A stretch of 64,000 bases of DNA from Cytophagaceae bacterium. GTDB taxonomy: Bacteria; Bacteroidota; Bacteroidia; Cytophagales; Cytophagaceae. The notes beneath the pieces were generated by a model. It was not told where the DNA came from and did not search any database. It worked only from the letters and a program-made list of their open reading frames with translations. Of this stretch, positions 1,375 through 51,102 are shown piece after piece (within the stretch, counting starts at the first letter, position 1; each line of letters opens with the position of its first letter). The stretch is taken from the NCBI GenBank assembly GCA_025454925.1, contig JALONM010000016.1, forward strand, positions 1 to 64,000, read 5' to 3'. The position numbers and the translations under genes are program-made.

Positions 1375-1455
1375 AAAATCTATTTGAAATCTTTGTACCA
1401 ACACATAACGAGAGACGAAAGAGGCAACTCAAAGACCAAACCTTGGCAATGCTTG

Positions 1456-1626
1456 AACTGGCTTTTCTCCATAGAAGCGAAGCGCACTATGGAGAAAGCT
1501 CATGGATCGTAGATCCATGGCCGGTCATCCCGACTTAGAAAATCATGGGCTTAGAAAAGAATTTCTTTTATTCGATTCCTTCTCAAGCCCTTGATTTTAG
1601 TAGTCGTTTTTCAATAGAAGAATTTG
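1456..1626 (+). repeat. Family B repeat, copy B1 (overlaps EamA gene 3' end)
   Basis: It contains TTTCTCCATAG with CTATGGAGAAA (first hairpin), CATGGATC with GATCCATG (second hairpin), CGACTTAGAAAATCATGGGC (left arm of the third hairpin) and its partner AAGCCCTTGATTTTAG. The right part, from about 1583 onward, is also the last coding stretch of the EamA transporter on the other strand. The final tail hairpin is cut off by that gene. Confidence 0.85.
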
Positions 1627-44520: not shown

Positions 44521-44729
44521 ACCGGATAGCTCTTTTAGGCAAAATACAATTAAACCCACATTTCTCCACGTTTCCTTTAAAATTAGACCAGGAACCCCAC
44601 GCTTGGTTGAACACCTGAAGCACAGCCCTTATCACTCTGAGTTCGCCCACTATTCAGGGTTCTGTTGGAAAATTAGGGTATACGAAATCTGAAATAAACT
44701 GGCCGAACTTCCGTAAAGGATCTTTTAAC

Positions 44730-44910
44730 GGACTTTACTCCATACAAACCAAGCGTACAATGTTGAAAGCTCATGGATCGTAGATGCATGGCCGGTAATC
44801 CCGATATAGAAAACCAGGGGCTTAGAAAAACATTTCCTGTGTTTTTTCCATCTGAAACCCTTGATCTTGGTTGACATTACTCCATAGAAGAATTTCTATT
44901 GAGAAATTAG
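44730..44910 (+). repeat. Family B repeat, copy B3 (degenerate)
   Basis: Recognisable by GAAAGCTCATGGATCGTAGA, GGCCGGTAATCCCGA, the TTAGAAAAACATTTC stretch and a tail hairpin CTCCATAGAAGAATTTC with CTATTGAG. The first hairpin is disrupted. It ends about 70 bp before the start codon of the three-gene cassette, the only B copy located between divergent genes. Confidence 0.7.
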
Positions 44911-44979: not shown

Positions 44980-46221
44980 ATGTCTGGAATTGTTGCTGTG
45001 GATGTAGCCATTGGATTGGTATTCATCTATTTACTTTACAGCCTGTTGGCTACTATTCTTCAGGAAATTATTGCTACCAATTTAAGCTTCAGGGCCAAGG
45101 TGCTGCAAAAAGCCATTGAGCGCATGCTGGATGAAGCCGAGGAGGAACATTCCTGGTGGGCTAAATTTCAAGCCCGGTTTTCTTCTTGGAAAAAAATTCT
45201 ACTGCCCAATAGTCCTGATAAAACGAAATTGTCGGGGAAATTTTATAATGCTTCCCTGGTGCGCATGCTGGGGGAAGATCGTTGGCATCAATTGCCTTCG
45301 TACCTGAATAGCGGAAATTTTTCCAAAGTACTGCTGGATTGGCTTAAGCATGGCCTCAAGCCCGGTGGGAGCGTAAAAGAAACCATTGAGTCGGTACTGT
45401 TTGTGAAGCCTGGCGAAACATACCCCGAATGGTTGCCCATGCTGTATCACGGAGGAAAAGTAGAGGAAGGCAAAGAACGCGAACTCCTGCTGTATTTGCG
45501 CAGCTTGTGGATAGATTCCCATTCGGATGCAGAAAAATTTAAGCTCCTGCTGGAACAATGGTTTGATGAAACCATGCAACGCACCACCGGATGGTACAAG
45601 CGGTACGTGCAAATCATTTTATTCGGCATCGGATTCTCCATGGCATTGGTCTTTAATGTAGACACCATTTCCATTACCAAAAAGTTATCGAAAGATCCAG
45701 ACTTGAGAAATGAACTAACAAAATCAGCTTCCAGTTTTTTGGCGGAGAACAAAGATCTAAACGAAGAAATGAAAGCCCGCCAGCGCACCATCGATTCCTT
45801 GTTGAAATCGGATACCAGCCGCAGCACCAAAGACAGCTTGCTCCAGGCGCAAACAAAGGCAGACAGCCTTGCAAGGCTGGTAATTCAGCGTAATAAAGAG
45901 TTATGGAATAAGGCTAAAACGTTGTACGAGCAAGACATCGCGGGGGTGCAGCAGTTGCTGGGCCTTGGTTGGAAAAAGGGAAGCTATACCACCTACTTCG
46001 GAACCTTCTCTGCTCCGGTTCCTATAGGAGGATGGAGCTTTTCGATACTCATCGGATGGATCATTACCGCGCTAGCCATTTCGCTCGGCGCACCTTTTTG
46101 GTTTGATATGTTGAATAAGTTGATGAAGCTGAAAGGCACAGGATCTAAATCTCAAGATTCCAATCTGCAGACAACGACCTCCAGCCAACCTGCCGCCACC
46201 ATAATGCAACGTAAAGGATGA
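44980..46221 (+). CDS. Cassette gene 1: inner-membrane protein, unknown
   Basis: A 413-residue membrane protein with three hydrophobic segments: an N-terminal one (about 3-30, VDVAIGLVFIYLLYSLLATI), one near 208-230 (VQIILFGIGFSMALVFNVD) and one near 353-382 (WSFSILIGWIITALAISLGA, then PFWFDMLNKLMKL). Between the first two is a charged cytoplasmic or periplasmic region of about 175 residues. Between the second and third is a helical, Ser/Lys/Asp-rich stretch (about 235-315) that could be a coiled coil. The ending SLGAPFWFDMLNKL recalls a motif I have seen in uncharacterised membrane proteins of several phyla. The stop overlaps the start of the next gene by 4 bp (ATGA). Not assigned to a known system. 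Confidence 0.75.
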   Translation: MSGIVAVDVAIGLVFIYLLYSLLATILQEIIATNLSFRAKVLQKAIERMLDEAEEEHSWWAKFQARFSSWKKILLPNSPDKTKLSGKFYNASLVRMLGEDRWHQLPSYLNSGNFSKVLLDWLKHGLKPGGSVKETIESVLFVKPGETYPEWLPMLYHGGKVEEGKERELLLYLRSLWIDSHSDAEKFKLLLEQWFDETMQRTTGWYKRYVQIILFGIGFSMALVFNVDTISITKKLSKDPDLRNELTKSASSFLAENKDLNEEMKARQRTIDSLLKSDTSRSTKDSLLQAQTKADSLARLVIQRNKELWNKAKTLYEQDIAGVQQLLGLGWKKGSYTTYFGTFSAPVPIGGWSFSILIGWIITALAISLGAPFWFDMLNKLMKLKGTGSKSQDSNLQTTTSSQPAATIMQRKG

Positions 46222-47222
46222 AAGTAGTTGTAAAAGACTTTTTGAACGTACGTGTTGGCGCGCCTCAGTTGGATGCGCCTTGTTACCAATACCTCGCTCC
46301 GGGAAGTGAAATTGAGGTACTGGATGAACTGGTAAGCGGACATGCGTACGAAGGAATTTCTACCTGGCTGGTTGATGCAGCGCGCAACTATTACTGGTCG
46401 GGTGGTGTGCATCCCTTTCAAATCCCACTTCCACAGAGAGTTCCGGAGGCTCGTTCCTGGGAAGAAGCAGTCAATACATATCCGGGGAAAGGCACCTCGG
46501 TAGGCGTTGCGATTTTAGACTCAGGAGTGTATTTACCTCATGCCGTAATTGGTCCGAGAATAAAATATTTTGAAAGCTTCCTGTATGGTAATTCTAAAAC
46601 GATTCTTTCATCGCATGGACATCGCGTCGCAGGAATTTTGGGTGCAGAAAAAGATCCGGTGCGCAATCAATCGGATTTGTTTATGTTCCTTGTCAGCAAA
46701 GACGTGCATGTAGATTCGTATGCGGTAGAACTGGCCTTGCTGGAAATTGATGCCAAACCCCAATTATTTCCTGGCCTTCGGCTTATCAATCTTAGTTTAG
46801 AAATACAGCCTTCATACGTGGCCCGCCTGCAGCCAATCATAGACAAGCTTTATGCGAAGGGAATTCTCCTCGTAGTAGCCGCCGGGCAAGATGGCGCGCC
46901 TACTGTCATGTATTCCCTTAAAAACGTGGTTAAAGTGGCTACCTTTGATCCTTCCAATACCGCCACGTATCGAAGGCATGGCTTTCCCCTGAAGGATTGT
47001 ATTTATTTTCTCAACTATCCCATTCCAACCTTCGGAAAAACCGATACGCAGCCCGATTCCAGCATTCAGGACGATAGCGCCTATTGTGCTTTCATGACTT
47101 CATTGTTGGCCAGACGTCTTGAACTTTCTTCCAACGAAAACCTGTTCGACTATACACGTCACATTTCTTCCCCTATACGTTCAGTTTCTGAAGTACACCC
47201 ATTTACTCCTTACCTAATATGA
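46218..47222 (+). CDS. Cassette gene 2: SH3-like plus divergent subtilisin (S8) fold protein
   Basis: A 334-residue protein with no signal peptide, so probably cytoplasmic. Residues 1-66 resemble a bacterial SH3 module (NVRVGAPQLDAP, ending NYYWSGGVHPF). Residues about 85-300 follow the S8 protease order. The catalytic Asp is Asp101 in VGVAILDSGV, the catalytic His is His133 in SSHGHRVAGILGA, and the likely Ser is Ser287 in DDSAYCAFMTSLLAR. Two key positions are unusual. The oxyanion-hole Asn of the AAGN motif is Gln224 (LLVVAAGQDG), and the GTS preceding the Ser is DDS. The enzyme may be weakly active, specialised or a binding protein. It overlaps gene 1 and gene 3 by 4 bp each. Confidence 0.8.
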   Translation: MKVVVKDFLNVRVGAPQLDAPCYQYLAPGSEIEVLDELVSGHAYEGISTWLVDAARNYYWSGGVHPFQIPLPQRVPEARSWEEAVNTYPGKGTSVGVAILDSGVYLPHAVIGPRIKYFESFLYGNSKTILSSHGHRVAGILGAEKDPVRNQSDLFMFLVSKDVHVDSYAVELALLEIDAKPQLFPGLRLINLSLEIQPSYVARLQPIIDKLYAKGILLVVAAGQDGAPTVMYSLKNVVKVATFDPSNTATYRRHGFPLKDCIYFLNYPIPTFGKTDTQPDSSIQDDSAYCAFMTSLLARRLELSSNENLFDYTRHISSPIRSVSEVHPFTPYLI

Positions 47223-49369
47223 AAAACATCTACGTATTTTTTTGCTTCATCCCCGGGTTCCTGCTGGCCCAGTCGCCATCGCTTTGGCAAGATGCCCTGG
47301 CCTTAAAAAAGATGGTTACTCTATACGACAGAGGTAATCAAAAATACCAGGTGGCCATCACCAAAGAAAATGTGCAAGCCTGCACAGAAATTTCTTCGCG
47401 TTATGGATTTATTCCCACCAACAATACAGCCTCTCTTCCAGCAGATTTACTCAGCTTTTGGGAAAAGAATGAATTTTTTCAGATTGCCAGTATCGTGCAA
47501 TCATCGGATGAATTGAAAGAGGTAAAGTTTAATAAGAACGACATTCAGAATTTTTGGAAAGAAAATTCCGGAGGTTTCAAAGCACAGAATCTTGCCGACG
47601 GCCTGGCGAAATTTTTGGTGGAACGCACCAAACAAGAACTCACCATATATTTCTTTCAGAAATTTAAAAGTGATTTAAATAAGTACGATGAATTGTCGAA
47701 ACTTTTCCCCGCAACCTGGTTGGTACTATCCACTATTGGCGAAGATATTTATTTGTTTGAAGCATACCTCAATACCTTGCGCGAAGCCTTTGCCAAGGAC
47801 ATGATAGGCTTTTACGAAAACTTTACACGCTTCCTCGAACACCCCCGTGTGCAGGGATATTTTGCCAACAGGCCTGAGTTTAAAGCCGTACTTACCACGT
47901 CCATGTATCTGATTAAGAATTTTTCGGAAGGCAGACATCCGGGTCTCATCCTAGAGGAATTTGACACGAATACCCTGAGTTCTTTCTCCAATCTGAAAAA
48001 CGCAATGAGCCTGATTCAACTCTTGTCTACTTCCCTAAAATCTGGCGGAGAATACTATTGGATTGCAAAAGAAGAGTGGACTCAGCTTCAAAACAACGAT
48101 ACCCTATCGTTTATTTATTTGGGATTGTTGTATAAAAACGCAGAAGAAATTTCGTTTTCAACGCCACAAAAGCAAGTAAAAGTTACCGATTGGTTGAAAA
48201 CTGCAAAGAAAAGTAATCTACGCATTCGTGAAACACTTGTCTTTTTGCAATCGTTGCTATCTCAAGCTAAGCAAATCAATACTCGCCTGGTAGCCTTGCA
48301 GCAAAGCGAAGCCAAGGGACAACAGTTTCCCCAAATCATCGATGCCTTTCTGGAATTTATTTCTATTTCATCAGGATTTCTGGAACTCAGCTATGTAGAT
48401 TTGGGAGAGGAGGAGACAAAATTGAAGACCCAAGTCCAGGATTTATTAAGCAACGGAACCTTGTCCAGAAATTTATTGTCGGATATCCAGTTGGGTAATT
48501 ATGGTAGTGCAGTCATCAGTGCCGTACATATTCTCAATGCTTGCAAGCCTGGCGCAGTGTCGGAAGGTATGGAGGATAAACTAAAAGCATTTGTGGAGGA
48601 ATTAAATAAAGATAAATCCAAAAAAGAAAAATGGAAGCTCAAAGATTTTGTAGCAGAGTTGAGCCTGGCCAAATTAGATTCTATAGCCAATAAATATCCG
48701 GCGTTGAAATCGAAAGCGGAAGAAATAGCACGGTATCACCTGTCTTCTCAATTGGAATTGCTGAAAGGACTGTTGTTGCGCTATGGCACCTTTGCGTCGA
48801 TGATGGCGCAGGCTAAAAATTCGGAAGATGTTAAAAACGCCATTGCCACCATTGCCTTACCCGCCGGAAGCTCGCTTATAAAGCGCGAAACACGCATGAA
48901 CGTAGCCCTCAATGCTTATGTGGGCTTGTTTACAGGCAATGAAAACATTATCGGAATTGGTAAAGAAAAATGGTTTAATTCGTTTGGAGTGACAGCTCCC
49001 GTCGGAATTACCCTGAGCAAAGGCCATTCGGTTTTCTTTATTGCAGGAACAAAAAAGGGATGGTCGAGCAGTTTGTTTATTTCCGCTATCGATATCGGAA
49101 CGCTGGTGTCGTATCGGTTTAAGAACAGCACCACCACACAGTTGCCAGAGTTGGAATGGAAGCATATTCTTTCTCCTGGATTATTTTATTCATTGGGCAT
49201 TCCTAAAAGTCCCTTGTCCATTACCGTTGGTACGCAAATCGGACCGAACCTGCGAGGTATTACCTCCGGGGCGGCGGATTTATCAGATGCCATGTACGTG
49301 CGCACCAGCATAGCCTTGTGCGTAGATATTCCGTTGCTCAATTTTTACAACCGCACCGAACGCAAGTAG
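47219..49369 (+). CDS. Cassette gene 3: large exported protein with barrel-like C-terminus, unknown
   Basis: A 716-residue protein. The signal peptide ends near FLLA-QS (residue 17). Residues about 40-540 are mostly alpha-helical with Leu/Lys/Glu-rich stretches (FPATWLVLSTIGEDIYLFEA, VQDLLSNGTLSRNLLSDIQL) and no recognised domain. Residues about 560-716 turn beta-rich with alternating hydrophobic strands (NVALNAYVGLFTGNENI, GITLSKGHSVFFIAG, PLSITVGTQIGPNL), which could be a small outer-membrane barrel or a beta domain. The export signal and the lack of a sorting domain suggest a periplasmic or outer-membrane location. It begins inside the stop of gene 2 (ATGA). Confidence 0.7.
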   Translation: MKNIYVFFCFIPGFLLAQSPSLWQDALALKKMVTLYDRGNQKYQVAITKENVQACTEISSRYGFIPTNNTASLPADLLSFWEKNEFFQIASIVQSSDELKEVKFNKNDIQNFWKENSGGFKAQNLADGLAKFLVERTKQELTIYFFQKFKSDLNKYDELSKLFPATWLVLSTIGEDIYLFEAYLNTLREAFAKDMIGFYENFTRFLEHPRVQGYFANRPEFKAVLTTSMYLIKNFSEGRHPGLILEEFDTNTLSSFSNLKNAMSLIQLLSTSLKSGGEYYWIAKEEWTQLQNNDTLSFIYLGLLYKNAEEISFSTPQKQVKVTDWLKTAKKSNLRIRETLVFLQSLLSQAKQINTRLVALQQSEAKGQQFPQIIDAFLEFISISSGFLELSYVDLGEEETKLKTQVQDLLSNGTLSRNLLSDIQLGNYGSAVISAVHILNACKPGAVSEGMEDKLKAFVEELNKDKSKKEKWKLKDFVAELSLAKLDSIANKYPALKSKAEEIARYHLSSQLELLKGLLLRYGTFASMMAQAKNSEDVKNAIATIALPAGSSLIKRETRMNVALNAYVGLFTGNENIIGIGKEKWFNSFGVTAPVGITLSKGHSVFFIAGTKKGWSSSLFISAIDIGTLVSYRFKNSTTTQLPELEWKHILSPGLFYSLGIPKSPLSITVGTQIGPNLRGITSGAADLSDAMYVRTSIALCVDIPLLNFYNRTERK

Positions 49370-50734: not shown

Positions 50735-50912
50735 CATCATAGAAGCGAAACTCATACGTCCCAAAGTCCTTGGATCGCAGAGCCATGGCCGGCAATTCCG
50801 ACTTAGAAAATCATGTGCTTAGAAAAGAATTTCTTCTATTCGATTCCTTCTGAAGCCCTTGATTTTATTAGTCGTTTGTCAATAGAAGAATTTCTATTGA
50901 CAAATTAGGGTT
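50735..50912 (+). repeat. Family B repeat, copy B4
   Basis: The start is eroded (ATCATAGAAGCGAAACTCAT), but from GGCCGGCAATTCCGACTTAG onward it is nearly identical to B5 over more than 110 bp. The tail hairpin is perfect (TTTGTCAATAG with CTATTGACAAA). It is joined directly to B5 in tandem. Confidence 0.85.
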
Positions 50913-51102
50913 AAACCGGCTTTTCTCAATAGAAGCGAAGCGCACTATTGAGAAAGCTCATGGATCGTAGATCCATGGCCGGTAATCCCGACTTAGAAAA
51001 TCATGTACTTAGAAAAGAATTTCTTCTATTCAATTCCTTCTGAAGCCCTTGATTTTATTAGTCGTTTGTCAATAGAAGAATTTCTATTGACAAATTAGGG
51101 TT
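50913..51102 (+). repeat. Family B repeat, copy B5
   Basis: Full-length copy with all four hairpins. The first is TTTCTCAATAG with CTATTGAGAAA, in which the C-G pair of B1 and B2 (TCCATAG with CTATGGA) has become an A-T pair on both arms. It follows B4 head-to-tail with a 190-bp period. Confidence 0.9.

Follow-up and report, generated by a model that had tools for sequence, protein, structure and literature searches.

A recurring three-gene cassette of Bacteroidota combines two unnamed membrane-associated protein families with an exchangeable enzyme

The 64,000-nucleotide stretch of Cytophagaceae DNA considered here (the window) carries three plus-strand open reading frames at 44980-49369 (Table 1). 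We refer to gene 1 as MEM, gene 2 as the S8 protein, and gene 3 as EXP. An earlier description made from the letters of the DNA (the sequence-only reading) had these genes joined by ATGA overlaps, and the open reading frame coordinates confirm that both junctions are 4-bp ATGA overlaps. The GC content of the trio does not differ from that of the window (44.4% vs. 43.9%), and the cassette is surrounded by ordinary genes, including an adjoining mechanosensitive-channel-like gene. A repeat named B3 had been said to directly precede the cassette. This repeat (44723-44910) is real, being a non-coding dispersed element of ~190 bp, but its position beside MEM is meaningless because ~40 copies, 77-82% identical, are dispersed across the genome. 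Two full copies and one partial copy occur elsewhere in the window (1453-1625, 50763-50908, and 50911-51098).

Table 1. Coordinates of the cassette and its features within the window
Feature	Position	Strand	Description or basis
MEM	44980..46221	+	413 aa, three-helix inner-membrane protein, N-out/C-in predicted
MEM TM1, aa 9-27	45004..45060	+	topology prediction
MEM TM2, aa 212-230	45613..45669	+	conserved N226/D228 at TM2 end
MEM TM3, aa 353-371	46036..46092	+	runs into G-A-P-F-W-F-D signature
S8 protein	46218..47222	+	334 aa, SH3-like domain and divergent subtilase, without signal peptide
SH3-like N-terminal domain of S8 protein	46218..46412	+	kin to domain on GH25 lysozyme and Amidase_2 proteins adjoining MEM elsewhere
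Catalytic Asp101 codon	46518..46520	+	invariant in 8 homologues
Catalytic His133 codon	46614..46616	+	invariant in 8 homologues
Gln224, oxyanion-Asn position	46887..46889	+	alignment of 8 homologues
Catalytic Ser287 codon, DDS replacing GTS	47076..47078	+	Ser invariant in 8 homologues
EXP	47219..49369	+	716 aa, exported; helical body and C-terminal barrel-like domain
EXP signal peptide, aa 1-17, Gln at +1	47219..47269	+	hydrophobicity; Bacteroidetes Q-rule (PMC5837995)
EXP C-terminal beta domain, aa 558-716	48890..49366	+	weak OmpX/NspA/OmpA-like structural matches

Topology prediction agrees with the earlier description of MEM as a three-segment inner-membrane protein. By hydropathy, three transmembrane segments occur in all 8 MEM rows belonging to trios, with two or four in a few of 18 other rows. 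Reading the orientation from the positive-inside pattern, we predict an external N-terminus, a large cytoplasmic loop (residues 31-208), a periplasmic loop (residues 229-350), and an internal C-terminus. The best conserved parts of the protein include TM1 and the cytoplasmic end (PFWFD), and the periplasmic loop is among the least conserved. This loop measured 141 residues in the presence of an exported partner versus 99 in its absence (p = 0.007, across rows that are not independent). The AF2 model of MEM had a pLDDT of 82.6 and matched nothing in the PDB by fold, nor did its sequence. A lipocone enzyme, as described in PMC12419801, was considered as the identity of MEM and not adopted. The GAPFWFD signature did not appear in the open-access literature searched.

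Gene 2 matched the Pfam S8 profile at E = 4e-4 (20.1 bits, just under the curated cut-off of 21.8) and subtilisins at 3e-6 with phmmer, and its close relatives match the S8 profile strongly, above the cut-off. Judged by its sequence, gene 2 appears to be a divergent S8 subtilase. The Asp, His, and Ser that had been picked out in S8 order are invariant over 8 homologues. A 3-sequence alignment placed Ser287 off the GTS serine, and the loss of the nucleophile that this suggested was dropped given that Ser is invariant across 8 sequences. Alignment also bore out both reported substitutions in the window protein. Gln occupies the oxyanion position in the window alone, where most relatives have Asn and two have Asp, and DDS stands at the GTS site in the window and in L018. 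The possibility that the window protein is a pseudo-enzyme scaffold with active relatives, which is compatible with every other reading considered below, draws on these substitutions and on the retention of both N and GTS in L014, L099, and L101. We nonetheless regard it as unlikely, because all 8 homologues retain Asp, His, and Ser and the Asp in two relatives implies that the oxyanion position drifts within the family.

EXP had been described as exported with a beta-rich C-terminus, and both features were recovered. Its signal peptide ends in LLA directly before a Gln at +1, in line with the Bacteroidetes Q-rule for signal peptides (PMC5837995). A signal peptide was seen at the start of all 20 EXP rows examined, counting three, cut or of ambiguous start, that show its hydrophobic core instead. 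The structural model (pLDDT 72.9) comprises a helical body and a C-terminal strand domain. With Foldseek, the top match of the latter was OmpA (E = 0.026, probability 0.91), a weak match, and similarly weak matches were obtained to the 8-stranded outer-membrane barrels OmpX (Z = 5.2) and NspA (Z = 5.1). These weak but consistent matches suggest that EXP has a helical periplasmic body followed by an OmpX/OmpA-like barrel. The structural matches of the helical body were designed or coiled proteins only. We found no gasdermin or nuclease match for EXP. Searches of Pfam, NCBIfam, PADLOC, and PHROGs gave nothing significant for MEM or EXP, which upholds the earlier statement that the trio fits no recognised system; there were only isolated weak matches, the best of them obtained with a single EXP relative (3e-4).

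The sequence-only reading would have been refuted by homologues that do not co-occur elsewhere, but the trio proved to be a recurring unit. Searches recovered EXP from 8 of 148 relatives and, at the level of the phylum, from 16 of 395 genomes. We read the operons at 23 EXP loci, with EXP split over two open reading frames at one (L019). The order MEM, S8 protein, EXP is kept at 8 loci of distant Bacteroidota (the window, L014, L018, L099, L100, L101, L102, and L103). Neighbouring genes overlap or lie at most about 93 bp apart, save at L100, where a GH25 lysozyme gene is inserted between MEM and the S8 gene. At other loci EXP is accompanied by different enzymes: MEM fused to a trypsin-like domain (L098), a transmembrane trypsin protein preceding EXP (L113, L015), a caspase (L104), M48-like proteins (L106, L016), secreted trypsins (L107, L109), a patatin (L108), or an M15 peptidase (L013). 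Pfam confirmed the S8, C14, M48 (L106), trypsin (L107), M15, CHAP, NlpC, and GH25 partners, with the patatin falling just below its cut-off, and the protease calls in L015, L016, L109, L113, and the MEM fusion of L098 are motifs read by eye. No enzyme partner of such kinds was seen for EXP in L105, L110, L111, L017, or L019.

In the EXP tree, the S8 cassettes of the window, L101, and L103 form a supported group (96/97) with the trypsin fusion of L098, and support is poor elsewhere. We take this grouping to mean that one protease has replaced another while EXP stayed the same. MEM and EXP are the conserved membrane parts of the cassette, and the enzyme is exchangeable. EXP was not found on plasmids when the L013 copy was used as a query. 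Two further features of EXP neighbourhoods were observed. Downstream of EXP and its trypsin partner, L015 (10635-15500) encodes one protein with a caspase domain and another that is large and TIR-like in appearance, and in two genomes of one genus a 1450-aa protein without a Pfam match lies divergent beside EXP (L017:3630-7988 and L019:1666-6075).

The presence of MEM was associated with the absence of a signal peptide on the enzyme. Among proteases beside EXP, 0 of 9 with MEM carried a signal peptide compared with 6 of 6 without MEM (Fisher p = 2e-4, where loci are related by descent and p-values are indicative only). Signal peptides were called by hydrophobicity rather than with a trained predictor. 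All 20 of 20 MEM-linked enzymes examined are signal-less, peptidoglycan hydrolases included. The exceptions fall outside the protease set: the M15 peptidase (L013), an NlpC protein (L016), and the patatin (L108) are signal-less in the absence of a full-length MEM, although L016 retains a MEM fragment of 75 aa.

A second association with MEM involves the SH3-like start of the S8 protein. No SH3 profile, SH3_3 included, matched the window protein, and a profile search showed that its SH3-like domain is common to a GH25 lysozyme and two amidases (Amidase_2). We counted 9 copies in 296 genomes, 8 of which adjoin MEM, using a profile built from MEM-linked copies, which tests where else the domain occurs and does not amount to its discovery. 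The ninth copy (L182) is the tail of an amidase-like open reading frame without MEM. The one protein on which SH3_3 itself was seen is a GH19 enzyme encoded beside another MEM (L157), where it scored just below its cut-off.

MEM is also found without EXP. In four such cases (L063, L065, L072, and L152) an amidohydrolase-type gene starts 3-11 bp after it, with Amidohydro_2 confirmed in L072 only. Elsewhere it adjoins a patatin-like gene (L057), a papain (L144), an Amidase_2 with the SH3-like domain (L155, L156), or the GH19 enzyme of L157, and it is fused to trypsin in L055, L061, and L062. Two peptidoglycan hydrolases beside MEM that were tested match phage endolysins, and MEM itself was found in only one viral contig. 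Plasmids of Rhizobium, Caballeronia, Paracoccus, and Agrobacterium carry MEM with neighbours that include patatin, an amidase with a peptidoglycan-binding domain, and vanadium haloperoxidase; the patatin and haloperoxidase neighbours were observed on the proteobacterial plasmids L169, L170, and L172. Several copies of MEM have no evident enzyme partner (e.g., L145, L147, L151, and L153). A recQ-like helicase gene adjoins MEM in three genomes (L145, L147, and L148), and in L148 the genes after MEM encode a 119-aa protein and then an exported protein of 445 aa, which may represent a second kind of partner.

Our preferred reading, to which we assign a probability of roughly 0.36, sees in the trio one form of a modular device that would span the envelope and hold or release hydrolases lacking a signal peptide. 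It builds on a conserved operon, enzyme exchange, the link between MEM and signal peptides, and the MEM-linked SH3-like domain, all drawn from computation, together with a predicted layout of inner-membrane protein, enzyme, and outer-membrane-anchored protein. The trans-envelope device proposed in the sequence-only reading survives in its layout and its conserved cassette, but it belongs to a broader modular family whose members carry different proteases, and the window holds only one version of it. In the proposed mechanism, MEM would serve as a platform or gate in the inner membrane for a signal-less enzyme made in the cytoplasm. After export by Sec, EXP would be held in the outer membrane by its barrel and extend into the periplasm towards the periplasmic loop of MEM. 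When triggered, MEM would let through the enzyme with its SH3-like domain (a subtilase in this cassette), which would act at the wall next to EXP. Passage of the enzyme by MEM, contact between EXP and MEM, and an outcome of controlled wall opening or lysis rather than housekeeping are the inferred parts of this mechanism. The biological role may be lysis, defence, or export.

The occurrence of the SH3-like domain on wall hydrolases, together with the signal peptide carried by the protease whenever MEM is missing, suggests that the enzyme works in the periplasm or wall and crosses by way of MEM. Passage of this kind has precedent, as folded endolysins and toxins can pass through holins (PMC9527704). 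Several observations count against such a device. MEM is unlike any holin and has no PDB match; the trypsin fusions sit at its predicted cytoplasmic end, which is easier to understand as a tethered cytosolic effector; amidohydrolases, patatins, and haloperoxidases, all found as partners, do not belong to the enzymes of the wall; and the M15 (L013) and NlpC (L016) proteins are signal-less without a nearby full-length MEM. A more specific and more speculative proposal, which we consider doubtful, is that MEM is a new cell-encoded membrane gate admitting SH3-marked signal-less hydrolases to the wall, with EXP completing the route in Bacteroidota and the cargo being exchangeable.

The main rival shares the same anatomy and treats the cassette as a trans-envelope alarm. 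EXP would sense damage or attack at the level of the outer membrane or periplasm and MEM would relay the signal, while the enzyme stays in the cytoplasm and cuts host or invader proteins in defence or programmed death; where MEM is missing, the exported protease would meet EXP directly. The fusion of trypsin to the predicted cytoplasmic tail of MEM favours this alternative, as does the receptor-like combination of a well conserved cytoplasmic end and a poorly conserved periplasmic loop. Interchangeable effectors, including caspase and patatin, are a theme of conflict systems (PMC7159879), and restriction-modification genes lie near two loci (L013 and L105), although these were hand-picked without a control and are not evidence of enrichment. 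However, an alarm leaves unexplained the signal-less peptidoglycan hydrolases that sit beside MEM with the same SH3-like domain, and MEM, the S8 protein, and EXP match no PADLOC system beyond a weak similarity of the S8 protein to IetS (E = 0.003). We consider the alarm possible, if somewhat unlikely, and a sensor role accounts for the data no better than enzyme release into the wall does.

Envelope homeostasis would instead make the cassette a regulated protease complex for quality control of the outer membrane or wall, with EXP as its substrate or regulator. By family, the periplasmic trypsin and M48-like partners do resemble quality-control proteases, and the window trio sits among ordinary genes beside the mechanosensitive-channel-like gene. 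Yet the patchy spread of EXP and the exchange of partners are unlike housekeeping, and we find this explanation rather unlikely. Still less probable is a module of lysis genes that frees contractile injection (eCIS) particles. Pvc16 genes occur near MEM or EXP at three loci (L143:5643-6266, L144:5608-6231, and L108:12160-12810) and in 9 of 22 EXP genomes compared with 38 of 198 sampled (p = 0.03), a weak enrichment that is raw for genome size and kinship. The remaining 13 of 22 EXP genomes are without Pvc16, and most cassettes, including that of the window, are far from any such gene. The only Pvc16 gene found in the window's own genome is on contig C89 and the window is on C75, which places the cassette outside the eCIS cluster. 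With the enrichment only weak, EXP was rejected as an eCIS part.

MEM and EXP mark a recurring three-gene device with a swapped enzyme, and no earlier description of it was found in the open-access literature searched or in Pfam, NCBIfam, PADLOC, and PHROGs, in which both families are unnamed. If enzyme release is correct, the device would constitute a new bacterial export or lysis route; if the alarm is correct, it would be a new kind of envelope immunity.

The cassette resembles known systems in part. Gene 2 shares with subtilase family S8 the Asp/His/Ser order and matches its profile just under the cut-off, but the window protein differs in having Gln for the oxyanion Asn, DDS for GTS, no signal peptide, and an SH3-like start. 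Bacterial gasdermin-protease pairs comprise a constant partner beside interchangeable proteases, and the protease activates the partner. The same arrangement is found in nuclease-protease pairs (PMC12799240). Unlike the constant partner in either kind of pair, EXP has a signal peptide and a predicted outer-membrane-like barrel. Insofar as sequence comparison can tell, neither MEM nor EXP has a counterpart among the protein families of the holin-endolysin-spanin or EACC1-caspase systems. The former, along with type 10 secretion, likewise involves an inner-membrane protein, signal-less wall hydrolases, and a protein reaching the outer membrane, and its folded cytoplasmic enzymes also need a membrane conduit (PMC9527704). 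In contrast, MEM ranges from 310 to 780 aa across its family, much of it in a cytoplasmic domain that is large, and no holin family in PHROG, Pfam, or NCBIfam matched it; EXP is a Sec-exported protein with a predicted helical body and barrel rather than a spanin, and proteases are the enzymes most often found beside it. EACC1 has a single helix where MEM has three, is mainly actinobacterial, and has no described exported barrel protein such as EXP, but the EACC1-caspase conflict systems share with the present cassette a constant membrane component, a protease, and various hydrolases that can take one another's place (PMC7159879).
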